From a virus, in the IMG/VR virus record IMGVR_UViG_3300030329_002799, positions 1 to 42,510 of that record: a stretch of DNA of 42,510 bases; one strand, written 5' to 3'. A model generated the notes under the pieces. The model ran no database searches. It was given only the letters and a program-made list of their open reading frames with translations, and was not told where the DNA came from. Numbering within the stretch: position 1 is the stretch's first letter; each line of letters opens with the position of its first letter. This document shows, in pieces, positions 6,275 through 42,510 of this stretch. The position numbers and the translations under genes are program-made.

Positions 6275-6365
6275 TACAAACAGAACGACCCCCGTCGTAG
6301 GACGGAGGCCGTGCTGCCGTTTGAAAGTATGGAGTGTGTGATGGCTCCACGCAGAGTATACACAA

Positions 6366-9520: not shown

Positions 9521-9529
9521 AGGTCCATG

Positions 9530-9586
9530 AGGGTGTGTGCGCTGAAAAAGCCTTATATAGCCCCCCAGCGCACACACCCTATTTTT
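9530..9586 (+). terminator. Intrinsic terminator with 15-bp stem
   Basis: AGGGTGTGTGCGCTG (9530-9544) and CAGCGCACACACCCT (9566-9580) pair perfectly around a 21-nt loop, followed by ATTTTT (9581-9586). It stops or attenuates transcription from the first early operon before the primase gene, which therefore probably has its own promoter. Confidence 0.88.
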
Positions 9587-9592
9587 GTCGAT

Positions 9593-12996: not shown

Positions 12997-13563
12997 TTAT
13001 CCCTCCGGTGTGAGCGCCCGTAACGGGGGTCGCTCAGTAGTGGTCCCGTACCCATGCTGGGGACAGAACCGTGGTAAATCCTCGCGGAGCCTGTAAATGA
13101 TGGGCTGAACGCCCCAGTCCCGCGCTGTGAACCCCAAATAATTGACCAGTGGTTGGGTCATGTCGATGTCCCACGGGGCATACGGCCCACGGTCAATGAC
13201 CCTCGCCAGCACGACCGTCACGCCGCGCTGATCAGGAGTCGGCACTTGAATCTCCATCCATGACCCCAGTGGGGCCGTTCGATGGGCCACCCCGAAGGTG
13301 CGACCACGGTGGAGGCCACTCCACAGGGAGCGGCGATCCGACCAGTCACAGTGCCAGTAGTGCGAGGTCTGGGTGTAGGGGAACCAGTACCCACGGCACT
13401 GGTCCTCTACGTAGACCCCACAATCCCAGCGACTCGGATCCCCGTATACCGAAGCATACGAATGGACCCACCCTGCATCGGGGGCGTGCCCCGACGTGGC
13501 AAAGGCCGTGACGACCAGTGCCAGCGACAGGACGACGCGCTTGGCCCAGTGCTTGAGGCTCAT
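12997..13563 (-). CDS. Secreted RlpA-like double-psi beta-barrel protein
   Basis: A 188-aa protein with a basic-then-hydrophobic signal sequence (MSLKHWAKRVVLSLALVVTA, cleavage near residues 22-27). The RlpA-like barrel follows: ASVYG, TFGVAHRTAPLGS with H94, ARVIDRGPYAPWDIDMTQ with D124, and LGFTARDWGVQPIIYRL. In bacterial RlpA the equivalent His and Asp are needed for lytic transglycosylase activity on peptidoglycan. Four Cys (48, 56, 72, 167) could form disulfides after export. Being outside the lysis cassette and in the early accessory operon, it may remodel the cell wall or block superinfection rather than lyse the host. Confidence 0.8.
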   Translation of the reverse strand: MSLKHWAKRVVLSLALVVTAFATSGHAPDAGWVHSYASVYGDPSRWDCGVYVEDQCRGYWFPYTQTSHYWHCDWSDRRSLWSGLHRGRTFGVAHRTAPLGSWMEIQVPTPDQRGVTVVLARVIDRGPYAPWDIDMTQPLVNYLGFTARDWGVQPIIYRLREDLPRFCPQHGYGTTTERPPLRALTPEG

Positions 13564-13733
13564 GGGGTCACCCCCATACGGCGCAGGATCTCACGAGCCT
13601 CCCGCGCGTGCGCTTGGTACGTCTCTAGGGTGATATCCCACGGCGGGGTCGTATCCACTGCCGCCAGTCGGCGCAGCAGGTCCACGGCCTCGCGTAAGAC
13701 CTCGCCGTCGGGTCCAAGATCAATGTCAGTCAC
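13560..13733 (-). CDS. Hypothetical 57-aa protein
   Basis: The most plausible start is GTG 13733, with AAAGGA 9 bases upstream. The stop overlaps the RlpA-like gene start as ATGA. The product is mostly helical and charged (GEVLREAVDLLRRLAAVDTT, QAHAREAREILRRMG). The conserved leader-module ATG (13753) here opens only a 7-codon peptide, MRKDIAP, whose TGA overlaps the GTG (GTGA), so the module start may feed this gene by coupling. GTG 13760 is a longer in-frame alternative. The family is unknown. Confidence 0.65.
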   Translation of the reverse strand: MTDIDLGPDGEVLREAVDLLRRLAAVDTTPPWDITLETYQAHAREAREILRRMGVTP

Positions 13734-13753
13734 GGTGCTATATCCTTTCTCAT

Positions 13754-13850
13754 CACACACCCCCTTAGGGGACTATCAGCGGGAAAATCCCGCACTGCCC
13801 TTGATACGATCTCCGGCATGGGGAGCGAAGCTGGGAATCACCCCAGCCCC
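13754..13850 (-). repeat. Start-associated leader module A (type I)
   Basis: In transcript sense: hairpin 1 GCTGGG/CCCAGC (13830-13847), GCTCCCCATG, a diverged hairpin 2 region, hairpin 3 GCGGGA/TCCCGC (13779-13793), then CCCCTAAGGGGG and TGTGTGATG. It lies between the 109-aa and 57-aa genes. Hairpin 2 is lost here while hairpin 3 and the start box are kept. Confidence 0.75.
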
Positions 13851-13866
13851 GCCCCGTGCTAGGCGC

Positions 13867-14196
13867 TTACGCGCTTTGCCTGAAGCCCATCTTCTGCCAC
13901 AGCTTTTCACCACTGAGCGTCGGGGTCTTGATGTCCCCTGCCTCCGGTGGTCCGGCCTTACGTTCTATAAGCTCGCCGCCCTTACGGACAAAATCCGTGA
14001 CGTAGGCGAAGCTAGCCTCGAACATTTCCCGAGCCTCAGACTCTTTAGCAAATAGCTCTGTCTCTACCCACGTCGCTCCCGACTTGCGGAGCTTGTACTG
14101 GATCACCGCAAACTTCGCGTCCGCAAAGCCGCGACACCCGTTGGTAAAAACCCTGTCGTCCTTAGACGAGTAGCTACTTCTATGTCCTCGATCCAT
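13867..14196 (-). CDS. Hypothetical 109-aa basic protein
   Basis: ATG 14196 is the conserved module start (AGGGGGTGTGTG-ATG). The protein begins MDRGHRSSYSSKDDRVFTNG, has a central helical part (ATWVETELFAKESEAREMFE) and ends basic. No known motif is visible. Its gene is bounded by leader modules on both sides, suggesting it behaves as an independent cassette. Confidence 0.72.
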   Translation of the reverse strand: MDRGHRSSYSSKDDRVFTNGCRGFADAKFAVIQYKLRKSGATWVETELFAKESEAREMFEASFAYVTDFVRKGGELIERKAGPPEAGDIKTPTLSGEKLWQKMGFRQSA

Positions 14197-14291
14197 CACA
14201 CACCCCCTTAGGGATGAACTCAGCGGGAAAACCCCGCACTGCCCAGCCGGTAAGGGCTGGGCATGGGGAGCGAAGCTGGGAATCACCCAGC
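14197..14291 (-). repeat. Start-associated leader module B (type I)
   Basis: Hairpin 1 GCTGGG/CCCAGC (14275-14291), CCCCATG, hairpin 2 GCCCAGCC/GGCTGGGC with loop CTTACC in transcript sense (14241-14262), hairpin 3 GCGGG/CCCGC (14223-14237), then CCCTAAGGGGG and TGTGTGATG. Confidence 0.82.
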
Positions 14292-14305
14292 CTCGCCCCT
14301 GTGGT

Positions 14306-14458
14306 CTATGGTAGGACCACCCACATTCCGACCACGAACAGCACCGCGAACAGGGCGATCATCGCCCCGTCCGTGAGCCAGTCCCTCGTGGTGCCGTGGG
14401 CTGGGGGAAGCCCCCAGATCTTGACCGTGTGGATCTTCTCAAACCTCACGGGCTTCAT
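14306..14458 (-). CDS. 50-aa membrane protein with C-terminal anchor
   Basis: ATG 14458 lies inside the end of the upstream gene (20-bp overlap) with GGGAG about 10 bases before it. The first 32 residues are soluble and basic (MKPVRFEKIHTVKIWGLPPA...). The last 18 are a membrane span (MIALFAVLFVVGMWVVLP), giving a tail-anchored or N-in topology. Coupling and the clean hydrophobic end support it. The function is unknown. Confidence 0.65.
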   Translation of the reverse strand: MKPVRFEKIHTVKIWGLPPAHGTTRDWLTDGAMIALFAVLFVVGMWVVLP

Positions 14459-14798
14459 CGGGCCACCACTCCCTTTCCTGCTGCGAGATACGGGCCATCG
14501 CCTCCGGCACCTCGTCGGCCCGTAGGAATGCCTTCACGTCGCGGAGCAGGTCGTGATACTCGTTGAGCATGACGCTCACCTTGTCCGACGCTTGCCCCAG
14601 TTCCTCGGCTGTTACCTTGAGCTTGGAACCGGCTTCGATGGCCAGTTGCGCGAACTCGCGCAACTGGTCGTTCTCATCCGTGATCTCCAAGACCCTCTCG
14701 ACCAGCCGGTGCTGATCGGGGGAGAGCCCCTCGTCATCCGTCGCTCGCCGTTGCTCCAGCTTGGATCGACTCCACGCTGGCTTGAGCGGTTGAACCAT
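14439..14798 (-). CDS. Hypothetical 119-aa helical protein
   Basis: ATG 14798 is preceded by AGGAGG and the GTGTGTG start box. The protein is almost entirely helical and acidic (VERVLEITDENDQLREFAQL, then SDKVSVMLNEYHDLLRDVKA), suggesting a coiled-coil or adaptor protein. No domain is recognised. It is the first of a coupled pair with the small membrane protein downstream, which could recruit it to the membrane. Confidence 0.72.
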   Translation of the reverse strand: MVQPLKPAWSRSKLEQRRATDDEGLSPDQHRLVERVLEITDENDQLREFAQLAIEAGSKLKVTAEELGQASDKVSVMLNEYHDLLRDVKAFLRADEVPEAMARISQQEREWWPDEAREV

Positions 14799-14933
14799 CA
14801 CACACCTCCTGTGCGTCCAGTCGGGCTACGTGCCCTCCTGGGTTTATAATACACGACTCATTAGCCGTGTAGGGGCCGAAGCCCGAACCACGGGCGGGGT
14901 ATCACCCCCGCCCGCAGCATCTCTACTCGCGGA
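14799..14933 (-). repeat. Degenerate leader module C
   Basis: This keeps the start box (AGGAGGTGTGTGATG) and a hairpin 1 (GGGCGGGG/CCCCGCCC, 14892-14913) but has other middle elements: GGGC-TTCG-GCCC (14873-14884) and CCAG-GAG-GGC paired to GCC-CGA-CTGG (14817-14841). A TATTAT/ATTATA box (about 14846-14852) between them is a possible -10 promoter element with no clear -35. Confidence 0.5.
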
Positions 14934-16112
14934 CTACCACTGGAACTTGCAGTGGGGACAAGTGGTCACCTCACGCTTGTTCGGGTCTACCGCTGGCAAA
15001 GGCTCCGGCTTCTGAATCGAGAACACCGTGATCGGGTCATAGTCCCGAGCCGCTGTTTGCAACGTTCCAGTTACCGCCAAGCGCTTTCTCGTCTCCGGTG
15101 TGAACGACGATCCGTGAATAATCGTGGCTCCTCTGGCCGTTGCGTGAGCATTGACCATTGGATCCGACGACCATGACACGGCGTTCTCGCCGTAGATGTT
15201 ATCGCTGACGACCTTGAGCGCATCCTCATCACGCACCCAATCCAACGTGGATTTGAGATGCGTGCTGTTTTGTGCGTCCTCGGCCAGCAGCGCCACGCCA
15301 TCCATCGCCGCAGACTCGACAACCTTGCCGAGTAACTGCGCGAGGTAGGCCGGTGTCACCATGTCGCGAGACATGGGCAGCGGTACTTTCTGCTGAACAT
15401 CCAGCGAGAACGGAAACTCGGACGTACTGATGTCGCAGACGGGGACACCAAGCTCGTACAACCACGGCTCGGGTTCCTCGTACAGCAGCACCGTCGTCTT
15501 ACGACTGGTTTTGCTCATCCCAGTCTCCGTCAACACCTCCGTCGGCACGGTGACGGTGGCTTGGTGAGCCACGGTCGGAGCTTCCACCTCAAGCGCATTG
15601 ATTGAGACGGTTAACCCTGACGGCTTCACGCGCAAGAGCCAGTCCTGAATCGTCGGCAGATCACCTTTCGGCATATCTATCAGCGACTCAATCCGCGTGC
15701 CAACAAACGGCGTCCGCTTGGTGCGAACAGTCCGCTTGCCGCCCTTGAAGACCACCTCAGTTTTCCCCGTCTGGATCACGGTTTCACGCGCACAGGCAAA
15801 GAAGTACTTGTCACCCGCATTGAAGCGGCCAGCAACACTTGGTGCCTGACGTTTCCCCGTCCGTCCAAACAGCGTCCACACGTCTTCAACATCGCGGAAC
15901 CCTGCCCCGTCATCGGTGTACACCACCCGTATCCCTCGCGGTTTTGGTTGGTGCGACAACTCGATCTGAAGGTGCGTCGGCCTTGGCCGATCATCGTACC
16001 CACGGTACTCGTCGAGAACATTGGCGACCGGCTCTAGGAAAAGCCGGTACTTCGCCTGCCCTCCCACGAGGTCACGTAGACCTTCGACGTTGACAGCAAA
16101 CATATCACTCAT
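14934..16112 (-). CDS. GHKL-type ATPase (MutL/Hsp90/RIIA-like), 392 aa
   Basis: The N-terminal third has the Bergerat ATP-binding motifs: N box EPVANVLDEY (27-36, with Asn31), G1 YTDDGAGF (65-72, with D67/D68), and G2 GRFNAGDKYFF (95-105). The middle has a beta-rich transducer-like region, and the end is a half zinc site (CPHC). Phage GHKL proteins include T4 RIIA-like proteins, which protect against host exclusion systems, and MORC/MutL-like proteins. In an accessory operon with an ArdC homologue, counter-defence is a fair inference. The start is the conserved module ATG; a longer GTG start one codon earlier is less likely. Confidence 0.82.
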   Translation of the reverse strand: MSDMFAVNVEGLRDLVGGQAKYRLFLEPVANVLDEYRGYDDRPRPTHLQIELSHQPKPRGIRVVYTDDGAGFRDVEDVWTLFGRTGKRQAPSVAGRFNAGDKYFFACARETVIQTGKTEVVFKGGKRTVRTKRTPFVGTRIESLIDMPKGDLPTIQDWLLRVKPSGLTVSINALEVEAPTVAHQATVTVPTEVLTETGMSKTSRKTTVLLYEEPEPWLYELGVPVCDISTSEFPFSLDVQQKVPLPMSRDMVTPAYLAQLLGKVVESAAMDGVALLAEDAQNSTHLKSTLDWVRDEDALKVVSDNIYGENAVSWSSDPMVNAHATARGATIIHGSSFTPETRKRLAVTGTLQTAARDYDPITVFSIQKPEPLPAVDPNKREVTTCPHCKFQW

Positions 16113-16216
16113 CACACACCCCCTAAGGGTAAGAATCTCAGCGGGAACGATCCCGCACTGCCCAGCCGGTAAGGGCTGGGCATGGGGAGCGGCTGGGGAA
16201 ACTCAATCCCCCAGCC
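16113..16216 (-). repeat. Start-associated leader module D (type I)
   Basis: Hairpin 1 GGCTGGGG/CCCCAGCC (16191-16216), CCCCATG, hairpin 2 GCCCAGCC/GGCTGGGC (16160-16181), hairpin 3 GCGGGA/TCCCGC (16141-16156), and AGGGGGTGTGTGATG. An ATG at the foot of hairpin 2 opens a 23-codon frame whose TGA overlaps the GHKL ATPase start (TGATG). Confidence 0.85.
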
Positions 16217-16228
16217 GATCAAGGCTAG

Positions 16229-16513
16229 TTAGCCGCGCACTAAATCCCACTCACAGCTAGGGCAGTAGCCTAACTGCCCCCAATCTTGTCCGAACTCGGA
16301 CGGGGTGCACCCGCTATGAGTGCGACGTTGGATCGTGTTGACCGGATGTACCGTAGCCCCCTCCACTGGGGAGTCCGTGCCATCGGTTTCTGCTGCCCAC
16401 GCTTGCTGTTCGCGCTCCAGATAGGCACGGGCGCTAGCCTCGCTGGGCCAGTCGGCGGCATCGTCAATCCTACGGGTACCGTCGCTGTGGAGAATCGCGT
16501 ATCTATTACTCAT
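16229..16513 (-). CDS. Hypothetical 94-aa protein with C-terminal CxxC
   Basis: The module ATG 16513 starts MSNRYAILHSDGTRRIDDAA, followed by a helix (SEASARAYLEREQQAWAAET). The C-terminal third contains HSGC (C69) and CPSC (C84, C87), a possible zinc site. Small proteins of this kind with an N-terminal beta strand and Cys-rich tail are frequent in phage accessory regions. No function is assigned. Confidence 0.72.
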   Translation of the reverse strand: MSNRYAILHSDGTRRIDDAADWPSEASARAYLEREQQAWAAETDGTDSPVEGATVHPVNTIQRRTHSGCTPSEFGQDWGQLGYCPSCEWDLVRG

Positions 16514-16613
16514 CACACACCCCCCTTAGGGGACTATCAGCGGGAACGATCCCGCACTGCCCAGCCGGTAAAGACTGGGCATGGGGAGCCGTGCTGGGAG
16601 TAACCCAGCACGG
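16514..16613 (-). repeat. Start-associated leader module E (type I)
   Basis: Hairpin 1 is a perfect 10-bp stem CCGTGCTGGG/CCCAGCACGG (16589-16613). Hairpin 2 is GCCCAGTC/GGCTGGGC (16559-16580), where C-to-T keeps pairing as U-G. Hairpin 3 is GCGGGA/TCCCGC (16540-16555). It ends in CCCCTAAGGGGGTGTGTGATG. Hairpin 1 differs from copy to copy while remaining paired. Confidence 0.85.
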
Positions 16614-16627
16614 CCCCTCGACGGCTT

Positions 16628-17620
16628 CTAGAGGCCCTCGTGGTCGAGAATCATACGGATGGCTTTATCCGCTAATTTCAGCGACTCATGCAGCAACTGC
16701 GGCGAGCCTTTGAACGCTTCCAACCATCCTTCAAGGTAGGCGGCGGAGTTGTCGTAGTCAGGCGTGAACCCAACATGGGCGGCACATATCGCGCCGACCA
16801 ACTCAGCCACCAATTCCTCTTTGGAATAGTCGATTTTGTTCGTGGTCGAGTACCCCTTAAGGCCACGGTTAAGCAAGTCATCGTGACCGGTCGAATGCCC
16901 GAGTTCGTGAAACAGCGTCGAGACCCAATTGGCGGTAACTTTTAGCCGCTCATCGTGACAAGCATCAGGCTTCGGCATTACAACCCGACCCCGATCCTCA
17001 CGAGTCCCAGAACTAAACCCCATGTAACACGGGCTTTCGTTCGGGCCAAAATCCTTCTCAACATAGCCCACACGGGCCTTCCGACAATATGCCTCACGAA
17101 TAGCATCAGCCTCAGCCGAACGTTCGACTTCGGGCCGGTCGTCCTGATCCGTTGCCAATGCTGGCAACGTACCTTCAGGCCAGTCAGCTTGCTCAACGTT
17201 GAAAACATTGAGCAGTCGATACCCGTAAAATCTCACGATCTTTTGCCCATGCTCATCGCGTACGGGCTTCCCATCCTCGCCACGTTCAAACACTGGTTTC
17301 GCTTGGATCACTTGGGTAGACTTTTCACCCTTGCGAACTTGTCCGCCAGCATCTTGAATATGTCCGTATCCGGCCCAACGAGGATCAGAGAATCCGTTCA
17401 ACATTCCCATGAGTTGGAGAAACAATGCGTTACCCATTGCGTAGGACTTGCGGGTTGTTTCTGACTTCGACCACGGGTTATGCGGTCGATTGTCTCCGGT
17501 ATACCGTTGGGTAATGCCGGACTGCCACGGCAGTAGGCCACCATCGCTGATTTTCTGAACGAGTTTTTCGGTCACGTCACTAAGAATTTCAGCGTTGGTT
17601 TTCTTTTTCTTACGTGCCAT
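16628..17620 (-). CDS. ArdC-like antirestriction protein (ssDNA-binding + zincin domain)
   Basis: This 330-aa protein has the ArdC/TraC-type N-terminal domain (residues 10-150: LPWQSGITQR, NPWSKSETTRKSYAMGNALF, GYGHIQDAGGQVRKGEKSTQ, FYGYRLLNVFNVEQ). The C-terminal zincin-like domain has HELGH (238-242) and a likely third ligand E273 in EELVAELVGA. ArdC proteins protect incoming DNA from restriction and bind single strands; the metallopeptidase-like domain supports that activity. Length and domain order match the family. It starts at the module ATG. In a phage accessory operon an anti-defence role is the expected one. Confidence 0.9.
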   Translation of the reverse strand: MARKKKKTNAEILSDVTEKLVQKISDGGLLPWQSGITQRYTGDNRPHNPWSKSETTRKSYAMGNALFLQLMGMLNGFSDPRWAGYGHIQDAGGQVRKGEKSTQVIQAKPVFERGEDGKPVRDEHGQKIVRFYGYRLLNVFNVEQADWPEGTLPALATDQDDRPEVERSAEADAIREAYCRKARVGYVEKDFGPNESPCYMGFSSGTREDRGRVVMPKPDACHDERLKVTANWVSTLFHELGHSTGHDDLLNRGLKGYSTTNKIDYSKEELVAELVGAICAAHVGFTPDYDNSAAYLEGWLEAFKGSPQLLHESLKLADKAIRMILDHEGL

Positions 17621-17718
17621 CACACACTTCCAAAATTGATCCGACTGCCTGCCCAGCAGGTACAGTTCTGCTCAGAGGCTGGCATGGGTCGGCAGTGGCT
17701 CAGTAAAGAGCCACTGCC
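17621..17718 (-). repeat. Start-associated leader module F (type II)
   Basis: Hairpin 1 GGCAGTGGCTC/GAGCCACTGCC (17691-17718), CCCATG, hairpin 2 (17647-17683, arms GCCAGCCTCTGAGCAG and CTGCTGGGCAGGC in transcript sense, loop AACTGTAC), then GGAAGTGTGTGATG. The ATG at the foot of hairpin 2 opens a 21-codon frame ending TGATG at the ArdC start. Confidence 0.85.
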
Positions 17719-17727
17719 AAACGTTGG

Positions 17728-17958
17728 CTAGTCAAACTGGCTAGGCGTACCGGAAGCCTTGCGGTACTTCTTGAATGCCGCCCGAAGTTTTTCTAGGCGG
17801 TCGTTTTGTATCTCTTGAGACTCACCTAGAACGAGTCCGTTGACCATTGCGACGGTAATCTTTTCAGCTTCGTCGATAATGTTGCTGGCATCAGCCATGA
17901 ATGCTTCGACACGTTCGTGGTACGTGTTCGTCGCCATGCTAAGAACCATTTTCGCCAT
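17728..17958 (-). CDS. Hypothetical 76-aa helical protein
   Basis: ATG 17958 follows the module box GGAGTGTGTGAG. The product (MAKMVLSMATNTYHERVEAF ... RLEKLRAAFKKYRKASGTPS) is mainly helical with a basic C terminus. The in-frame ATG 18018 is the foot of hairpin 2. If used, it would fuse a 20-residue leader to this protein, the only module copy where the frames join. The family is not recognised. Confidence 0.65.
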   Translation of the reverse strand: MAKMVLSMATNTYHERVEAFMADASNIIDEAEKITVAMVNGLVLGESQEIQNDRLEKLRAAFKKYRKASGTPSQFD

Positions 17959-18049
17959 CTCACACACTCCGATCCGACTGCCAGCCCAGCAGATACAGTT
18001 CTGCTCAGAGGCTGGCATGGGTCCGCCAGTGGCTGCAAGGCCACTGGCG
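17959..18049 (-). repeat. Start-associated leader module G (type II)
   Basis: Hairpin 1 is a perfect 10-bp stem CGCCAGTGGC/GCCACTGGCG (18024-18049). Then come GACCCATG, hairpin 2 (17980-18016; GCCAGCC pairs fully with GGCTGGC), and GGAGTGTGTGAGATG. Confidence 0.85.
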
Positions 18050-18057
18050 AAGCTTGG

Positions 18058-18132
18058 CTATTCGCCGTGTTGTAACTGGTACTGCTCATCAATCAAGCGA
18101 TCAATCTTTTCTTGTAGATGATCGCGTGACAT
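18058..18132 (-). CDS. Possible 24-aa peptide
   Basis: ATG 18132 encodes MSRDHLQEKIDRLIDEQYQL followed by QHGE, a charged amphipathic helix. It ends 8 bp before leader module G, in the position a gene occupies between modules elsewhere in the operon. The in-frame codons upstream also read as protein-like (YALYIVEE) but offer no standard start. The ribosome site is weak (GAAGAA). It could be a real micro-gene or the remnant of a longer one. Confidence 0.45.
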   Translation of the reverse strand: MSRDHLQEKIDRLIDEQYQLQHGE

Positions 18133-18194
18133 TTCTTCAACGATGTACAGGGCATAATCTGTACGTCAAGCGTTTTGGCTACGATTTTTACCCC

Positions 18195-18428
18195 CTACGC
18201 CAACGATAGATTGGCATTGGTTCGCATTTCGTTCAACGCGCAATCGGAGTGCATCACCGAATATTCAACGGTGATCGTCCGGCCTACTGTCCGGTTGCCG
18301 TTGATACTGATAACTTCGGCGACCTCGGCTAGCTCGTCGCGTTCGTAGTCAAGCGTCTCGCCGCACGTCCCGCATTCGGTCGCATCAAGATATTTGGCGT
18401 CGGTCTTGTCGCTGTGTACGTTGGACAT
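18195..18428 (-). CDS. Hypothetical 77-aa protein with zinc-type cysteines
   Basis: AAGGAGAGG lies just upstream of ATG 18428, so unlike its neighbours this gene has a conventional ribosome site. CGTC near residue 19 and HSDC near residue 60 could form one zinc site around a beta-rich core (AEVISINGNRTVGRTITVEY). The family is unknown. Confidence 0.72.
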   Translation of the reverse strand: MSNVHSDKTDAKYLDATECGTCGETLDYERDELAEVAEVISINGNRTVGRTITVEYSVMHSDCALNEMRTNANLSLA

Positions 18429-18543
18429 TTGCCCTCTCCTTTGCCTTTCGGCGATATCTGAAAGTTAATCGACTGCCAGCCCAGCAGAACATCTCTGCTC
18501 ATAGGCTCGCATGGGTCCGCCAGTGGCTGTAAGGCCACTGGCG
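18429..18543 (-). repeat. Leader module H (type II, start box replaced)
   Basis: Hairpin 1 is CGCCAGTGGC/GCCACTGGCG (18518-18543) and hairpin 2 spans 18475-18510, both as in modules G and I. The GTGTGTG box is absent, replaced by a longer spacer with an ordinary AAGGAGAGG site. Hairpin 2 has a G-G mismatch near its foot, so this copy is decaying or specialised. Confidence 0.78.
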
Positions 18544-18551
18544 AAGCTTGG

Positions 18552-19088
18552 CTAGACTGCCGCCACAACCACGTCGCCATCAACGGTGGTAATGGTGGTG
18601 TTTCCATGATCATTAACGTGTAGCACGTGACCACATTCGGATACGATCCGACCGTCGGTCAGCTTCACATGTGCATCGTGTTGGAACGCACATTCAATGT
18701 GAAACTCGTGCAACATCCAGCCATAGGTATTGTTGCCATCAACGAAGCCAGCGAATACCAGATACGGATTGTCCGTGTTGGCTTCGTTGATGTGATCAAC
18801 CACTTCGTCAATCAGTTCCGAAATCGCTTGGTATGCGTCGCCAACGTAGTACACACCAAACTTTTCTTGAAGATCCTGCATCTCATTCCAATCGGTAGCC
18901 TCACCATCCCGAACGGTCTTGATCGCTTTTCGAGCCTCAAGAATCGTGTCGTAGGCCGGTCCTACCAGAATGGTTGTACCATTTTGCAGCGTCGTTGCGG
19001 CGAGGTCTTCAAGATAGCCTACGAGTTCTTCCAGAAGATCGGCGTCGTTATATACGTCACTGGTAACCGGTCCTAATTCAATTTTCAT
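18552..19088 (-). CDS. Hypothetical 178-aa acidic protein
   Basis: The module ATG 19088 opens MKIELGPVTSDVYNDADLLE. The protein is acidic and helical in its first 125 residues (ELVGYLEDLAATTL, SELIDEVVDHINEANTDN). Its second part is beta-rich and His-rich (YGWMLHEFHIECAFQHDAHV, CGHVLHVND), where H and C could bind metal. I recognise no family. Net negative charge and location would suit a DNA-mimic inhibitor, but nothing proves this. Confidence 0.72.
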   Translation of the reverse strand: MKIELGPVTSDVYNDADLLEELVGYLEDLAATTLQNGTTILVGPAYDTILEARKAIKTVRDGEATDWNEMQDLQEKFGVYYVGDAYQAISELIDEVVDHINEANTDNPYLVFAGFVDGNNTYGWMLHEFHIECAFQHDAHVKLTDGRIVSECGHVLHVNDHGNTTITTVDGDVVVAAV

Positions 19089-19183
19089 TTCACACAACTC
19101 CATGAAACGCTACTGCCAGCCCAGCAGAACCTATCTGCTCAGAGGCTGGCATGGGTCCGCCAGTGGCTGCAAGGCCACTGGCG
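19089..19183 (-). repeat. Start-associated leader module I (type II)
   Basis: Hairpin 1 CGCCAGTGGC/GCCACTGGCG (19158-19183), GACCCATG, and hairpin 2 (19115-19150), whose apical loop differs by one base from modules F, G and J. It ends in GTTGTGTGAAATG. The one-base loop change shifts the internal reading frame but keeps the stem, pointing to selection on RNA structure. Confidence 0.83.
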
Positions 19184-19191
19184 AACAATGG

Positions 19192-19419
19192 TTATCCGTA
19201 GATTTCGCGGTCACGAAACAGGCAGTTGTCTATTTCACCCTGCACATACTTGGCGAAATGCTCATCGGTTAACTCACCAATTTCCAAGCCGTATACCTTG
19301 GCAATAGTCTTGATACCTTCACGGTCTATGATCACATCATCCACCCATGTTTTTACTTCGTAGCGTTCGTTGGGATGACCATAGCCTTTGTCGTCATGTA
19401 GTCGCTTGAACTTTGCCAT
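19192..19419 (-). CDS. Hypothetical 75-aa protein, first gene of accessory operon
   Basis: ATG 19419 follows GGAGTGTGTGAA. The product is MAKFKRLHDDKGYGHPNERY, then a mixed helix/strand core (TIAKVYGLEIGELTDEHFAK) ending REIYG. It is the most promoter-proximal gene of the leftward accessory operon, preceded by leader J with the tRNA-like element. No family is recognised. Confidence 0.72.
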   Translation of the reverse strand: MAKFKRLHDDKGYGHPNERYEVKTWVDDVIIDREGIKTIAKVYGLEIGELTDEHFAKYVQGEIDNCLFRDREIYG

Positions 19420-19482
19420 TTCACACACTCCAATTGATCCGACTGCCTGCCCAGCAGATACAGTTCTGCTCAGAGGCTGGCA
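19420..19482 (-). repeat. Start-associated leader module J (type II), hairpin 2 and start box
   Basis: Hairpin 2 spans 19445-19481 and matches module F, including an A-A mismatch in the lower stem. The start box is GGAGTGTGTGAAATG. Where other modules carry hairpin 1, this copy has the branched tRNA-like element at 19483-19537. Confidence 0.83.
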
Positions 19483-19537
19483 TGGGAATGCTTGCTGGAG
19501 TTGAACCAGATAACCGCACCAGTTGCGGCAAGCATTC
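19483..19537 (-). ncRNA. tRNA-like element lacking an anticodon arm (candidate)
   Basis: On the minus strand, GAATGCTTG and CAAGCATTC (9 bp, extendable to 10) enclose two hairpins. One is D-arm-like: CCGC/GCGG with loop AACTGGT holding the GG pair. The other is T-arm-like: CTGG/CCAG with loop TTCAACT, where the string GGTTCAACTCC fits the tRNA T-arm consensus. CCA follows the acceptor strand directly (19485-19483). Reading it as 8-bp acceptor plus 4-bp T-stem gives the standard 12-bp stack. There is no anticodon arm. The CCA also belongs to the CCCATG shared by all modules, so it may be fortuitous. Alternatives are a remnant tRNA attachment site or a chance branched hairpin. Confidence 0.45.
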
Positions 19538-19539
19538 AA

Positions 19540-19557
19540 GCGAGGCTGAAGCCTCGC
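19540..19557. other. 7-bp hairpin at head of accessory operon
   Basis: GCGAGGC (19540-19546) pairs with GCCTCGC (19551-19557) around TGAA (TTCA on the minus strand). It lies 2 bases upstream of the tRNA-like element on the minus strand and has no T-tract, so it is probably part of the leader RNA rather than a terminator. Confidence 0.5.
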
Positions 19558-20354
19558 AGTTTGTGTGTCATGTGATGATGATGAAATCGGGAATAGCGCC
19601 AGCCTTGTCAGTCCGTTACTCGGTTCCGATTTATTTGTCACTGCTGCCACTTTGACCTACTCGTTCTGGCTTCGGGCTGGTCACCGCGTTTTCGCTAGTG
19701 ATCATTGGACTTCGTATTGGGTACCGCCATCACATCCCTACTGGCGACTATCGCAAATTTGGGAACCCATCCGCTCCGAGCCTCTGACATAGGCATGGCA
19801 CAGGGGGGGGAAGGTAAAGGATCTAAGCTATATATTCACACTCCTACACTATTCAAACGATGGGTACATCGTACCCATGTGGGCTGCTGGAAGTCTAGTG
19901 ACGCAAGTAGCTAGGGACGTAGTAACGATGGTTTTAGGCTATTTGAATCGAGTCAGACGGCCTAAAAGAATCTAAAAGAATATTTTCTAGGATCGCTGGA
20001 AAATGTACGTGAGACCCGTCGCGACGATTGAGGCTGAAATAGTTGGTTCACGTGGTCGGTCGCGCGACGAATTCTCAGCGTGGCGGCACTAGCCTGTAAG
20101 CGATGGTCTAGGCATTTGGTGGTGGCTGGATCGCGGTCGAGACCGTCAAGCAAGGTGACGGTCGCCACCCTGCCGCATGGTTATGTTAAGTAGGATTTTC
20201 GTCAAGCAGCTTGACGGAGGTTTGACGCGCCGACCGTCTGACCAGTGTAAGAGTATTCCCCGTCTCGAAAAAAAACCAAAAAAAGAGGGGGGTCTTGTTG
20301 CTTCGTCCCTCAAATCGTCAATAATGGGTTTGACGCGCATATAAAGGACGGAAT
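19558..20354. promoter_or_regulatory. Non-coding control region between divergent operons
   Basis: About 800 bp without a convincing gene; short ORFs here lack ribosome sites and neighbours. It holds a palindrome ATGGGTAC/GTACCCAT (19860-19878), an inverted pair TTTTAGGC/GCCTAAAA (19932-19967), a tandem CTAAAAGAAT pair (19962-19981), and an A-rich tract (20267-20285). A cluster of TGACG/CGTCA motifs lies at 20144-20338, including the inverted repeat CGTCAAG/CTTGACG (20200-20216) and two copies of TTTGACGCGC (20221-20230, 20329-20338). Promoters for both operons should lie here, and the terminase binding or packaging site is likely near its right end. No clear sigma-70 promoter could be fixed. 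Confidence 0.55.
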
Positions 20355-21032
20355 ATGACCGACGCATTGGCGACAGTTGACCACGCCGAGCAGGGATGGG
20401 CGGGTGTGGCCTCGAAGGATCAGGCGTTATTGCAGGTCTTGGCCGACGAAGCGGATGAAATGTTCAGTGATGGCCGGGATGTGTACGAGCGGGCCTGCCA
20501 GTTGTTGGCGATGGGCCGTCCGTATCGGCGGTTGTACCGCGAGATGAGTCCGGCGCAGCCCTTGAACCGGCATGGGGGCAAGACGGCGAAGATGTTTGCG
20601 CGGCTCTGGAACGCCCCGGGGACACGGGACTACATCATGGACCTGCGGCGGCGGACCCAGCGGGATATGGTGCAATTCCTCGACGAGAACGCGCCCTTGA
20701 TGCACGATGTGTTGGAGCGGGCCTTGCAGGGAGACGAAGATGTTACGAAAATGCAGGTCGATGTGGCCTTTAAGATGTTCCACCAGCGGTACGGGCGACC
20801 GACGCAGCGGATAGCGCATGAGCACAGTGGCGGCATCACCCACGAGCACCTCCAAGACTCCGAGCAGTCCCTTGTTGCGGCATTTGCCGCCGTCAGTGAA
20901 GACCCCCAGCCCATTATTGATACGGAAGCTGTCGCGGTGGAATCTGGCGAACCAGTGGCTGGAGCGGAACCGGGTGCCGGACATGCCGCCGTTCATCCCG
21001 AGTCCCGAGCACTGGCCGGTGATTCTGGATGA
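20355..21032 (+). CDS. Terminase small subunit (225 aa)
   Basis: AAAGGA lies 7 bases before ATG 20355. The N-terminal half contains a helix-rich segment (YERACQLLAMGRPYRRLYRE) suited to DNA recognition. The middle holds the oligomerisation-like helices (MQVDVAFKMFHQRYGRPTQR), which recur in phage small terminases of the form ...K--L-RYG-P-Q. The last 60 residues are acidic and Ala/Glu-rich. It is directly followed by the large subunit with an overlap, the standard order. It should bind the packaging site, perhaps among the TGACG repeats just upstream, and load the motor. Confidence 0.78.
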   Translation: MTDALATVDHAEQGWAGVASKDQALLQVLADEADEMFSDGRDVYERACQLLAMGRPYRRLYREMSPAQPLNRHGGKTAKMFARLWNAPGTRDYIMDLRRRTQRDMVQFLDENAPLMHDVLERALQGDEDVTKMQVDVAFKMFHQRYGRPTQRIAHEHSGGITHEHLQDSEQSLVAAFAAVSEDPQPIIDTEAVAVESGEPVAGAEPGAGHAAVHPESRALAGDSG

Positions 21033-22317
21033 GGGGCGGGAGCGGCTGGTCGCCGGGGGTGAAGGCTCCGGGAAAAGCCGGGTCGGGGCGCAGGAACTCT
21101 TTGGGATGGCCGAGCCGGGGGAGTTGTACTGGCTAGGCGGCGAGACCTACGACGATACGTTGCGGGAGTTCGAGTACCTCGTCCACCTGTTTGAATCGGT
21201 CGGGGCGATTGAGAGTTCGCGGGGGCCGACCAAGGATGGCTGGGAGATTGATCTGAAAGCGCCGTTCAAGGGGACGCGGATCCGGCCACGCCTCGCCTCG
21301 GACGTGCGGAAGATTGCGTCATACGCGCCGAAAGGCATCCTGATCTGCGAGGCGGCGAAAGTTGCGGAGGAAGCGTTTCAGCGCTTCCGGGGCCGCATCC
21401 GTCGTGGGCAGCACGGGTGGGCCTTGTTTACCGGAACTTTTGAAGGGAGCCTGCACTGGTACGCGGACCAGTTCACGGCATGGCAGGTGCCGGGGGCGGG
21501 CGGCGCGAGCTACAGTATCCCGTCATGGGCGAATCTGGTGTCGTTCCCCGAGGGGGCGAAGGACTCAGAGATCCAGACCCTGCGGGCCTCGATGCCCAGT
21601 GCCCGGTTCATGGAGCGCCATGCGGGAACCCCGGTGCCTCCGGCCACGCTGGTGCATCCCGAGTTTGATCCGAAGGTCCATGTGGGCGACCACCCGTTTA
21701 CAGCGGCTCGCCGACCGGGGGACGGGATGCCGCCGGAGCGCTGGCCGGTGGAACTGGCGATAGACCCCGGCGGGTTGGTGTACGCGGTGTACGCGATCCA
21801 GCGGGATGGAGACATGATCTATATTCGGGACGAGGTGTATGCCACGCCGCCGCAGTCAGTGGCCGAGCGCGTGATCGCCGAGTGCCGGACCCGCCCGTGG
21901 TGGAAGAACGTGACCGGCGGGGTGATCGACATCGCCGGATCGCAGCACAATGGCAACCACAGCCAGATCGACATCTGGTCGGCCCGGACGGGGATCGGCC
22001 TGCGCCGCGCCTACTGGCGGGTGAATGAGGGCATTGACCGCATGAGTACCTACCTGCGGGATCCGGCAGGGGAGGCCAATGGTGAGACGGATCCCCGGGC
22101 GCTGACGAAGATCCTGATCGACCGGAAGTGCCAGTCGCTGGTACGAGAATTCCGGCTCTACCGCCGCCCGGACGTGAAACCGGGACGTGCGATCAGAGAA
22201 TTACCCATAGATGCACATAATCATGGCATAAAAGCGATAAGCTATTGGTTATTGATGTCATTCGGACCAACTGCACGTATGCGACAACGGGCACACGATC
22301 TCGTCTGGAGCGGATAA
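20974..22317 (+). CDS. Terminase large subunit
   Basis: The packaging ATPase-nuclease. Walker A is VAGGEGSGKS, about 26-35 residues after the start. A Walker B-like GILICEA and the coupling motif FTGTFEGS follow. The nuclease domain has AIDPGG and VIDIAG aspartates and DAHNHGIKAISYW near the end. Length is about 447 aa. I chose GTG 20974 (GGAG 9 bases upstream); ATG 20983 is close behind. The frame is open back to ATG 20818, but that stretch is Ser/Pro/Thr-rich and overlaps the small subunit by 215 bases, so it is probably a shadow. Confidence 0.9.
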   Translation: MPDMPPFIPSPEHWPVILDEGRERLVAGGEGSGKSRVGAQELFGMAEPGELYWLGGETYDDTLREFEYLVHLFESVGAIESSRGPTKDGWEIDLKAPFKGTRIRPRLASDVRKIASYAPKGILICEAAKVAEEAFQRFRGRIRRGQHGWALFTGTFEGSLHWYADQFTAWQVPGAGGASYSIPSWANLVSFPEGAKDSEIQTLRASMPSARFMERHAGTPVPPATLVHPEFDPKVHVGDHPFTAARRPGDGMPPERWPVELAIDPGGLVYAVYAIQRDGDMIYIRDEVYATPPQSVAERVIAECRTRPWWKNVTGGVIDIAGSQHNGNHSQIDIWSARTGIGLRRAYWRVNEGIDRMSTYLRDPAGEANGETDPRALTKILIDRKCQSLVREFRLYRRPDVKPGRAIRELPIDAHNHGIKAISYWLLMSFGPTARMRQRAHDLVWSG

Positions 22318-39332: not shown

Positions 39333-40546
39333 TGGCAACTTCAACAACGACACTTGGCTTACGAAAACCGGCAACGACGGATACCGTCGATGTCTCCACA
39401 GATCTCAACACGCCGTACGACACGATAGACGACCAGTTTCAGAAGGGCAGCGATGTCGCCTCGGCCACCAGTATTACGGTGCCCGACGAAGGCTACTTCG
39501 ACATTACCGGGACCACGACCACGGCGGGGTTCAGCACCGTCAACGCAGGCATCATGAAGATGGTGCAATTCGACGGGGTGCTTCAACTCACGCACAACTC
39601 CACGTCCTTTAACTTACCGACCGGGGCGAATATCACCACGGCGGCAGGGGACCGGGCGCTGTTCCGATCTGAAGGCTCTGGCAACTGGCGCTGCATGTGG
39701 TATCAGCGGGCGAGCGGCGGAGCACTGGCTATCGCTGACAACAGCGTGGATTCGGATGCCTATGTCGATGGATCTATCGACACGGCGCACCTCGCGGCAG
39801 ATGCTGTCACGGGGGCTAAGATCGCAGACGACGCGCTGGACAGCGAGCACTACACGGACGGAAGTATTGACGCGGCTCACTTGGCTTCGTCAGCCGTGAC
39901 GACCGCCAAAATAAATGCGGACGCTGTGACCGGAGCTAAGATTGCCGACGACGCACTAGACTCAGAGCATTACACGGACGGGTCAATTGATACGGCCCAT
40001 ATTGCTGATAATCAAGTTACCCTTGCGAAGCTCAGTGATGGGACACAAGGCGGCATTCTCTACTACGCAAGTGGCGGTGCCCCAACAGAATTGTCCGCAG
40101 GCACCAGTGGGTACTACCTGAAAACACAGGGGGCCAGTGCGAACCCCGTATGGGCCGCTGTCGCGAGTGGCGGGAAGATCGACCAAGTGTCGTTTACGTC
40201 CGGGGCTACCGGCTCAACGACTTCCACGAGTTACGCAGATGTCTCTGGCGGCGAGGTGGATATCACCACCGATAAGGGCGGCCTGATGGCGTGGTACTTC
40301 CTCAGTGGATATAACAGCAGCACGTCAGGGAACACCTACATCGCGTTGCAATTGGACACGGCCACCGAGGTCGCCCAGTCGCAGGTGACGCAGAACCTCT
40401 CGAATCAGGATTACGTGTACTCTGGGTTCCATGCGTGGACGAGCGTGAGCGATGCAGCCCATGAAATTAATATCAGGATGAAAGTCAGCGCAGGGACGTT
40501 CACAATTCGCGGGGGAGCGATCCTCGTCATGGAGTTCGATGACTAA
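39332..40546 (+). CDS. Tail fibre protein with decapeptide-repeat stalk (404 aa)
   Basis: The start is ATG 39332, overlapping the previous stop; an in-frame start at 39260 lies inside the upstream gene and is rejected. The N terminus (LGLRKPATTDTVDVSTDLNT) is the anchor seen in many environmental phage fibres. Residues 70-125 form a beta domain. Residues 141-240 are ten consecutive decapeptides on one register: SDAYVDGSID, TAHLAADAVT, GAKIADDALD, SEHYTDGSID and so on, expected to make a trimeric stalk. The C-terminal 160 residues are a beta-rich head, probably the receptor-binding part. The repeats are identical in protein but use different codons. Confidence 0.85.
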   Translation: MATSTTTLGLRKPATTDTVDVSTDLNTPYDTIDDQFQKGSDVASATSITVPDEGYFDITGTTTTAGFSTVNAGIMKMVQFDGVLQLTHNSTSFNLPTGANITTAAGDRALFRSEGSGNWRCMWYQRASGGALAIADNSVDSDAYVDGSIDTAHLAADAVTGAKIADDALDSEHYTDGSIDAAHLASSAVTTAKINADAVTGAKIADDALDSEHYTDGSIDTAHIADNQVTLAKLSDGTQGGILYYASGGAPTELSAGTSGYYLKTQGASANPVWAAVASGGKIDQVSFTSGATGSTTSTSYADVSGGEVDITTDKGGLMAWYFLSGYNSSTSGNTYIALQLDTATEVAQSQVTQNLSNQDYVYSGFHAWTSVSDAAHEINIRMKVSAGTFTIRGGAILVMEFDD

Positions 40547-40833
40547 TGGCTGTAACAACTGATGCCACCATACGACCTGATCAACTCGAAACCGAACTGG
40601 CCGATGCTGGCATCGACGTGAGTCACGGTATCGGCACCAGCGCGGCAAATACCGGGACGATCTATACCTACGATGCGAATGGGAAAATCGTGGATCTCCC
40701 GGATGAGGCGCAGAGCGTGGTCAATAGTCACGACCCGCAGCCCATCGTGGATCCCCGGATCGAAGTTATTGATGGGATGGATTCCATATCAGATGCAGAT
40801 AAGGCAGCGCTCAAGTCGCTGATCACCGGATAG
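40546..40833 (+). CDS. Hypothetical 95-aa protein (right repeat copy)
   Basis: Identical to the gene at 886-1173, coupled to the tail fibre gene by TAATG. Same gene on the circular map, not a paralogue. Confidence 0.75.
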   Translation: MAVTTDATIRPDQLETELADAGIDVSHGIGTSAANTGTIYTYDANGKIVDLPDEAQSVVNSHDPQPIVDPRIEVIDGMDSISDADKAALKSLITG

Positions 40834-40843
40834 GAGCCTTGCA

Positions 40844-40945
40844 ATGCCACGAGTCGGACGCAAGCATTACCCGTACACGAAGGCTGGAAAGAAGGCGGCG
40901 CGTAAGGCGCGAAACACGATGCGCCGCAAAAAGCGCAAGAAATGA
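40844..40945 (+). CDS. 33-aa basic protein (right repeat copy)
   Basis: Identical to 1184-1285, with the same GGAG site and ATGA overlap with the next gene. Confidence 0.7.
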   Translation: MPRVGRKHYPYTKAGKKAARKARNTMRRKKRKK

Positions 40946-41691
40946 ACGGGCTGCTCAGTCACAAGCTGCCGATCAGTCTCCTCGTATCGAACGGGGGGAT
41001 TCTGGTAGGACTTGTGATTGGGGCCGTCAACTTCTACAACCAATTTGAGAACAACACCAACGCGATCCACCACCTCACCGAGCAGATGGGCGGGATCGAA
41101 GAACGGATCGCTACGGCGAACCTTGACGGTATGTCGGACCAGTTTCGATACCTCGACGAACGGATCAATCAGGAGATCGCGGATCTTGGCTACAAGGTCG
41201 ATGAACTCCGACGCGATGCCGATCACAAGGCGGACACACTAAAGACTGATGCCACGTATGCCAGTGAGCGACTCGCGGCCTTAGAGATAAGAGCGCAGCA
41301 GCAGGATGAAAGCATCAGCAATCAGAACTGGTCGGGCGAGGATCTGCAACGACAGGTCAGCCAGTTGGTGGCCGATGTCCAGTCGATGCAGAACAGCGTT
41401 CATGATGTGGAGGAACTGACCCGTGAGATTAACTACGTCAAGGAGCGCCTGTCAGCGCTCGACGTGCTGGTCAGCCAGCCTGCCGATCTGGATACCAGTT
41501 GGCTGGAGAACGAGATTCAGGTGATCTCCCGACGGCTGACGGATACCGAGAACCTGATCAGCGAAGTGAACAGCCGCACAAGCATTCAGTCCGAGGACTT
41601 GTACCGACTGGTTGAGGGCTTGGAAGAGCGCCTCTCCCTGCTGGAGCGTGTCGGGAACCATAAAAAACTACTGGAGAAAGCACGGCGATGA
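40942..41691 (+). CDS. Membrane-anchored coiled-coil protein (right repeat copy)
   Basis: Identical to 1282-2031: one membrane span near the N terminus, then a long coiled coil. Confidence 0.8.
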   Translation: MNGLLSHKLPISLLVSNGGILVGLVIGAVNFYNQFENNTNAIHHLTEQMGGIEERIATANLDGMSDQFRYLDERINQEIADLGYKVDELRRDADHKADTLKTDATYASERLAALEIRAQQQDESISNQNWSGEDLQRQVSQLVADVQSMQNSVHDVEELTREINYVKERLSALDVLVSQPADLDTSWLENEIQVISRRLTDTENLISEVNSRTSIQSEDLYRLVEGLEERLSLLERVGNHKKLLEKARR

Positions 41692-41746
41692 TAGATTCGT
41701 TGTGCGGTCTCCCGGAAGTTAGGGCGACCGGGGGACCGCCCCTCCT

Positions 41747-42076
41747 ATGGACCGCCTGACCGACGCCAAGCTCCCGATTGGACTGGTGGCCGTCATCGTC
41801 GGTCAGGCGATGGGGCTGGCCGTCTGGATTAACACCTTGCAGGGTGAAGCGTCCAGTGCGCTATCCAGTGCGAGTGCGGCACAGGCGCGGGTTACGGAAC
41901 TCGAAGATCGACTCGCTGCCACCGAAACCCGGCTGGCGATTCTGAACGACCAGCAGAAGCAGATTAACGCGGAGCATATGCAGATCGGGGATTCGTTCCA
42001 GAAGATCTGGGATGAACTCGACAAGCGCTCACCGGCCCCGGTCCCCACCGGCACCCAGCGCAGTTACGGCTATTGA
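41747..42076 (+). CDS. Small membrane coiled-coil protein (right repeat copy)
   Basis: Identical to 2087-2416, and again preceded by the 12-bp hairpin (41704-41739). Confidence 0.75.
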   Translation: MDRLTDAKLPIGLVAVIVGQAMGLAVWINTLQGEASSALSSASAAQARVTELEDRLAATETRLAILNDQQKQINAEHMQIGDSFQKIWDELDKRSPAPVPTGTQRSYGY

Positions 42077-42273
42077 GCGTCCGGTGCCATGCGTGCTCTG
42101 CAAGTGAGCCTACGACACGTGCGGCTTTCCGAAAGCAGTGGGTACGCCATACCCAAGACCAGCGGCTCTGGTGGAGCTGTCCGACCTGTGATCAAGAAGC
42201 GTATCGGCGAGCGCGGGAGCGGCGAGGCAGAACCTCGTTCTTCCTCAAGCACCCAGAAAGGGACTCACAATGA
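42073..42273 (+). CDS. CxxC zinc-knuckle protein (right repeat copy)
   Basis: Identical to 2413-2613, with the TTG start overlapping the previous stop. Confidence 0.7.
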   Translation: MSVRCHACSASEPTTRAAFRKQWVRHTQDQRLWWSCPTCDQEAYRRARERRGRTSFFLKHPERDSQ

Positions 42274-42510
42274 TTCCACCGCTTGACGGCATTATCCGGG
42301 TTACGGATGTCTTCGGCACCGCACGTGGCACCTACAGTCACGGGGGCATTGACCTCGGGCTGACCAACGACTATGTGCATCGTAAGCCCATCCGATCTCC
42401 CGAGGCTGCTGAAGTGGTGGCGATCTTTGATGGGGGCTACCCCTATGGGAACGCGGTGGCGATCAAGGGCGCGTCAGGGGTCTGGCGGTTTATGCACATG
42501 GACGAGCCAC
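42270..42510 (+). CDS. Endolysin, 3'-truncated copy
   Basis: The first 80 codons of the endolysin, cut by the window edge inside the M23 domain after the HGGID zinc-ligand motif. It carries the silent G at 42419. The intact gene is at 2610-3542. Confidence 0.93.
   Translation, partial: MIPPLDGIIRVTDVFGTARGTYSHGGIDLGLTNDYVHRKPIRSPEAAEVVAIFDGGYPYGNAVAIKGASGVWRFMHMDEP

Follow-up and report, generated by a model that had tools for sequence, protein, structure and literature searches.

Why should one folded element stand before nine unrelated genes of a phage, an anti-restriction gene included? The question is raised by an accessory operon in the virus record IMGVR_UViG_3300030329_002799 of IMG/VR, which was analyzed over its whole length of 42,510 bases (the window). 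Nine minus-strand start codons between 13.75 and 19.56 kb were found to be preceded by related multi-hairpin leaders of about 100-125 nt, termed modules A, B, and D to J. This arrangement suggests one shared control or processing signal. Judged from the sequence, the best reading is that the modules would be cis-acting RNA leaders that insulate, stabilize or process each cistron, and we give this reading a probability of about 0.45.

All nine modules are sense-oriented and located directly 5' of a start codon (coordinates refer to the window; modules and their genes are on the minus strand). In the order of the RNA, hairpin 1 begins a few bases past the upstream stop codon and is followed by CCCAUG, hairpin 2, and then a Shine-Dalgarno (SD) site, UGUGUG and the AUG. 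Two sub-families were distinguished, type I (A, B, D, and E) and type II (F, G, H, I, and J), and the type I leaders add hairpin 3 and a mini-hairpin on the SD site 3' of hairpin 2. The fold z-scores of the leaders relative to dinucleotide shuffles ranged from -2.3 to -6.6. We built covariance model R1 from the type I copies and R2 from the type II copies, with J left out of R2. A genome search with both models recovered exactly the nine sites and none elsewhere, with scores of 80-109 bits for the training copies and 51 bits (E 6e-10) for J. R2 also weakly detected the type I module D (25.7 bits, E 0.0015), which indicates that types I and II are distantly related. Rfam gave no match to the modules at the gathering threshold, nor at E up to 1. 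Folds and models thus confirmed the nine related leaders listed in a preliminary description of this region. That description placed all of them in intercistronic gaps, which does not hold for module J (19420..19537). J has a type II hairpin 2 and a branched hairpin 1 (outer stem GAATGCTTGC/GCAAGCATTC), and it is the leader of the first operon gene (19192-19419). A module is therefore not simply an intercistronic gap.

The preliminary description also held that changes between the copies keep pairing, and this proved true of hairpin 1 but not of hairpin 2. In hairpin 1, modules B (14197..14299, leader of a 109-aa gene at 13867-14196) and E (16514..16617, leader of a 94-aa gene at 16229-16513) differ by six stem substitutions that make up exactly three whole pairs, all still paired. 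The chance that six substitutions in 28 paired sites fall into three whole pairs is about 0.001, before it is required that pairing is kept. One further double change, a C-G to G-C flip, was found between module F (17621..17727, leader of the ArdC-type gene), which also carries a 2-bp insertion in hairpin 1, and module G (17959..18058, leader of a 76-aa gene at 17728-17958), and modules A and B differ by an A-U to G-U change. The tally for hairpin 1 is four paired double substitutions, one G-U change and no broken pair. In module D (16113..16219, leader of a 392-aa gene) both arms of hairpin 1 are rewritten and the 5' GGGG is missing. Six classes of hairpin-1 arms were recognized, and the assignment of each arm to its own partner gave the best pairing of all 720 assignments, a test favoured by the arms having been picked as pairing arms. 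By these comparisons hairpin 1 is well supported as a structure, of which the shape is conserved and the sequence is free.

The changes in hairpin 2 follow another pattern. The hairpin, which occupies 14240-14263 in module B, sets the two types apart by a paired insertion, a C in one arm facing a G in the opposite one. In module A both inner arms are replaced so that only UGCC/GGCA is left; the grouping of A, B, D, and E as type I stands, but the arms GCCCAGCC/GGCTGGGC given for it are absent from A. Unpaired changes were found in type II, with an A.A mismatch common to F and J and a G.G mismatch in H, and F has also lost the terminal A-U pair. The sequence of hairpin 2 and of CCCATG is kept even where the stem is imperfect. 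Hairpin 2 thus appears to be conserved mainly as sequence, either being recognized or belonging to copies that are recent or homogenized.

One-sided stem changes that keep pairing bear on the nature of the selected molecule. There are four such changes: in hairpin 1 of A, hairpin 2 of E, hairpin 3 of B, and the copy of module H in a near-identical phage contig (DEAG01000018.1), which is binned with the Gemmatimonadales metagenome-assembled genome (MAG) UBA2988. All four gave G-U on the transcribed strand. Since the same changes give A-C on the other strand, selection has more likely acted on RNA of the operon sense than on DNA.

The last ~20 nt of the leaders contain GGGGG or GGAG, then UGUGUG and then AUG at a fixed spacing. 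SD and TGTGTG precede nine of the ten operon starts, the exception being module H (18429..18551, leader of a 77-aa gene at 18195-18428), where the hairpins are kept, the 3' part is replaced by a different SD region and TGTGTG is missing. Leader C (14799..14933), before a 119-aa gene at 14439-14798, has the start motif (AGGAGGTGTGTGATG) and only unrelated hairpins. The motif is thus separable from the hairpins, and (G)TGTGTG cannot be kept as a fixed part of one design as first proposed. GTGTGTGATG occurs seven times in the genome against 0.06 expected, and six of the seven copies are at starts in the operon. The seventh (GGAGTGTGTGATGG, 6334-6343, plus strand) lies before a 13-codon open reading frame (ORF), inside the start of a minus-strand ORF. 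Pairing to the anti-SD sequence was -10.6 to -12.4 kcal/mol for A, B, D, E, and C, which ranks these leaders near the top: only two of 26 other starts tested were comparable (-11.5 and -10.2). The G-run of the SD site is paired in type I by a fourth hairpin, the mini-hairpin CCC(C)-U(A/U)A-GGG(G), with energies of -6 to -9 kcal/mol. In module A (13754..13855) hairpin 1, CCCATG, the degenerate hairpin 2 and hairpin 3 are thus followed by a CCCC-UAA-GGGG mini-hairpin over the SD site and by TGTGTG, after which come an ATG at 13753 (7 codons) and a 57-aa ORF at 13560-13733. The 7-codon ORF (13730-13753, minus strand) ends in a TGA that overlaps the GTG of the 57-aa ORF, and a coupled start is possible.

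According to the reading as cis-acting RNA leaders, each module would form the 5' leader of a single cistron on a polycistronic accessory mRNA, acting in cis as RNA. Hairpin 1 would serve as a structural insulator or stabilizer and as a probable processing point, hairpin 2 behind CCCAUG could be a recognition site for a host RNase or an RNA-binding protein, and the last ~20 nt would provide an SD site at fixed spacing, covered in type I by a small hairpin. Unrelated genes would in this way be expressed as independent units under a shared stability or translation rule. This reading is based on four sets of observations: the sense orientation of all nine modules directly before a start codon with none elsewhere in the genome; the paired changes in hairpin 1 together with the one-sided G-U changes and the paired C/G insertion in hairpin 2; the strong anti-SD pairing of type I and C with mini-hairpins over the type I SD; and the lack of promoter- or terminator-like sites on the sense-strand module hairpins. 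Of the three functions first suggested for the modules (ribosome-recruiting leaders, RNase-processing sites, and homologous seams for gene cassettes), the first two appear to fit best. That the leaders fold in the cell, are processed or bound by a protein, and affect expression is predicted from sequence.

Several observations weigh against this reading. Three changes in hairpin 2 of type II are unpaired, most of this hairpin is gone from A, and leader C manages without the module hairpins. The type II SD sites are ordinary, with anti-SD pairing of -4.0 to -8.7 kcal/mol. The covariation comes from few events and all copies are from one phage population, and DNA template switching at quasi-palindromes could yield paired changes without selection.

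Phage start-associated repeats have had no settled function since 2011. Pairing that is kept under sequence change, together with the occurrence of motif and hairpins apart from each other (C versus H), makes an RNA-level hypothesis directly testable. If new genes join a shared expression programme by means of a leader, this would be a simple rule for integrating accessory and anti-defence genes. We consider it possible, but doubtful, that the repeated multi-hairpin leader represents a novel class of phage RNA element with one factor, an RNase or an RNA-binding protein, recognizing all copies. In that case any gene acquired with a leader would enter the same post-transcriptional programme of a partly anti-defence operon.

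The main rival is a sequence-specific translational operator, in which one phage or host RNA-binding protein on CCCAUG/hairpin 2 would switch the whole set together. The conservation of these sequences despite imperfect stems is what such a protein would leave behind, and the predicted occlusion of the type I SD would need opening. However, recent copying between modules could account for the same conservation, A lacks most of hairpin 2, and no candidate regulator was identified, so that we find an operator rather unlikely.

The modules might also be kept as homologous seams, at which recombination brings in, takes out or rearranges accessory genes; in line with this, they span the whole stop-to-start gap. 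The modules are mosaic: G combines hairpin 1 of H and I (19089..19191, leader of a 178-aa gene at 18552-19088) with the hairpin-2 loop of F and J, and F and J have the 3' half in common. Such mosaic copies fit copying or conversion between modules. The GC content at third codon positions was 0.56-0.57 for the ArdC and type II genes, 0.70 for the type I genes and 0.72 for core genes, a contrast which implies that the two types of module go with gene blocks of different origin. The operon stretch compared between the window and the MAG contig contains eight substitutions, three of which are located within 10 nt at hairpin 2 of module H (window 18489-18505, L012 7353-7369 in the MAG contig); the stem substitution among the three keeps a G-U pair. 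This cluster suggests patchy conversion between modules or local hypermutation. Against seams, gene order and content are the same in the MAG contig, and neither this contig nor any distant relative, of which none was found, shows a gene gained, lost or swapped at a module. Seams also need sequence identity, yet hairpin 1 keeps its structure while its sequence is free to vary. A search of the modules for sigma-70-like promoters of the E. coli-type consensus, which may not be that of the host, found none. The idea of cassette movement thus has circumstantial backing but no event to go with it, and we regard it as unlikely. An inserted cassette at the runs of N in the MAG contig (at module G and ArdC) was considered and rejected, since each of the two gaps is longer than the matching window sequence by much the same amount (~300 bases), and they were taken as scaffolding artefacts. 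The MAG phage version also has a ~320-bp imperfect tandem duplication (80%; L012 8794-9095 and 9113-9424) in the divergent intergenic region, where the window has a single copy (19930-20241) and the MAG junction has an N-run. This could stem from a deletion in which one of the direct repeats was lost, or from a difference in assembly.

A role in transcription, as intrinsic terminators, attenuators or put-like antitermination RNAs between genes, could be proposed from the strong GC-rich hairpin just past each stop codon. But no sense-strand module hairpin is followed by a U-run, and terminator-like sites in the region were at chance level (eight against 6.3 expected). The two near-abutting hairpins within about 70-100 nt recall, in outline only, the put RNAs of HK022, which form two nearly adjoining stem-loops within about 70 nt of a phage early transcript (PMC9378689). 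Unlike the modules, put occurs at two sites per genome and acts over a long distance, while here each of nine genes has its own copy next to the start codon. Since a single put serves its operon over kilobases, there would be no need for nine copies, and a role in transcription is improbable.

The modules might instead be inverted repeats acting at the DNA level, i.e., operators or other sites bound by a DNA-binding protein, a role proposed for stoperators and for the extended start-associated sequences (ESAS) of mycobacteriophages. Perfect inverted repeats are DNA palindromes too, and those of ESAS look like DNA sites (PMC3203893). However, hairpin 1 varies in sequence with pairing kept and hence offers no common DNA site, the one-sided changes that are tolerated give G-U on the sense strand, and all copies point in one direction before start codons, which makes this explanation very improbable. 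Debris of mobile elements (integron attC) or short leader ORFs starting at CCCATG might be suspected from the small unrelated genes with imperfect inverted repeats between them and from the ATG within every CCCATG, but both were rejected as next to negligible, since the attC core pair RYYYAAC/GTTRRRY is absent from eight of nine modules (J has one self-complementary match only) and the reading frames opened by CCCATG differ from copy to copy in length, frame and sequence and lack a clear SD upstream.

The modules were compared with known systems. The closest known kind is the start-associated sequence (SAS) and ESAS repeats of cluster K mycobacteriophages and cluster EF Microbacterium phages (PMC3203893; PMC7302621; PMC11373665). 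These are likewise same-orientation repeats, placed at the ribosome sites of numerous non-structural genes unrelated to each other, and consist of a start motif and an upstream inverted-repeat motif that occur together or apart. The likeness to cluster K noted in the preliminary description was therefore an apt lead with respect to position and to the combination of motifs, but the SAS sequences themselves are at chance level. With up to three mismatches the 13-bp consensus sequences GGGATAGGAGCCC and GGGAAAGGACCCC gave 16 and 9 matches against 15.9 and 17.0 expected, none at operon starts. ESAS is a 17-bp imperfect inverted repeat whose departures do not support RNA pairing according to Pope et al. 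(PMC3203893), and SigA-like promoters were placed in it by later work (PMC11373665). In contrast, the modules are ~100 nt with 2-4 hairpins, hairpin 1 covaries, and no sigma-70-like promoter was seen in them. We suggest that the modules are repeated start-associated elements in structured-RNA form, in the same place as SAS/ESAS but probably outside that family. Cluster EG Microbacterium phages also have inverted repeats 14-22 bp ahead of starts, and cluster O has 17-bp repeats (PMC7302621; PMC4351075). These resemble the modules as repeated dyads in short intergenic gaps, some of them recombining, but are short, near-invariant DNA palindromes and not RNA hairpins of variable sequence. In T7, the early precursor of ~7,000 nt is cleaved by RNase III at five sites, which yields mRNAs of one or two cistrons (PMC4858673). 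These sites are structured gaps between cistrons of a phage transcript as well; the likeness is one of position, and co-transcription is presumed here. In T4-type phages, cassettes of a promoter and a stem-loop between small accessory genes were reportedly described by Arbiol et al. in 2010, with a proposed role in shuffling. The modules differ in the lack of a promoter of the E. coli-type consensus, which need not be the one used by the host, and in that no shuffling was seen.

Outside the window, the modules were found only in the near-identical MAG contig. BLASTN against isolate phages (50,697 records) gave short chance matches only and nothing similar to the modules, and three accessory proteins had no match there. 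Scans of viral contigs with exact patterns for the type I and type II cores gave unrelated chance matches only. A gapped hairpin-2 pattern found at least 120 stretches in the viral contigs, none module-like on the features checked, and R1 and R2 gave no strong match on the ~80 of these that were searched. Protein searches with ArdC, the helicase and the 392-aa protein found no viral-contig relative. With TerL one relative was found among the viral contigs (L010, 83% TerL identity), which at 5.3 kb is too short to include the operon. The nearest isolate matches of TerL reach only ~27% identity and come mostly from Microbacterium phages, among them AnnaSerena, a cluster EF phage that carries SAS/ESAS motifs (PMC7302621). 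A Gemmatimonadales host is not proved, as binning is no proof of host, and 100 further Gemmatimonadota genomes scanned beyond the MAG contained no module.

The last 2,850 bases of the window (39661-42510) repeat the first 2,850 (1-2850) with one mismatch, and the map therefore closes at about 39,660 bases; the overlap reflects a circular map or a direct terminal repeat. The accessory operon is read leftward on the minus strand, starting at about 19.42 kb and reaching about 13.0 kb. It lies upstream of the terminase genes (TerL at 20818-22317) and diverges from them, and its leader-bearing genes are presumably transcribed as one operon. Its products are mostly small proteins without family match. 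The gene behind module F (16628-17620, minus strand) encodes an ArdC-type anti-restriction protein of 330 aa with ArdcN and MPTase-PolyVal domains (PF08401, 2.2e-19; PF18818, 1.5e-19; phrog_7245, 4.9e-43). F itself has the A.A mismatch in hairpin 2 mentioned above. The 392-aa protein (14934-16112, minus strand) has no family match and one distant match in a 485-kb uncultured phage; its DDGAGF and GRFNAGDKYF motifs recall GHKL ATPases. Between the genes of modules H and G there may be an unannotated small gene (18059-18190, minus strand), where a 24-codon ORF (MSRDHLQEKIDRLIDEQYQLQHGE) was seen that ends exactly at module G. Outside the operon, the palindrome GTGTGTGCGCTG...CAGCGCACACACCC followed by TATTTTT at 9525-9590 is terminator-like.

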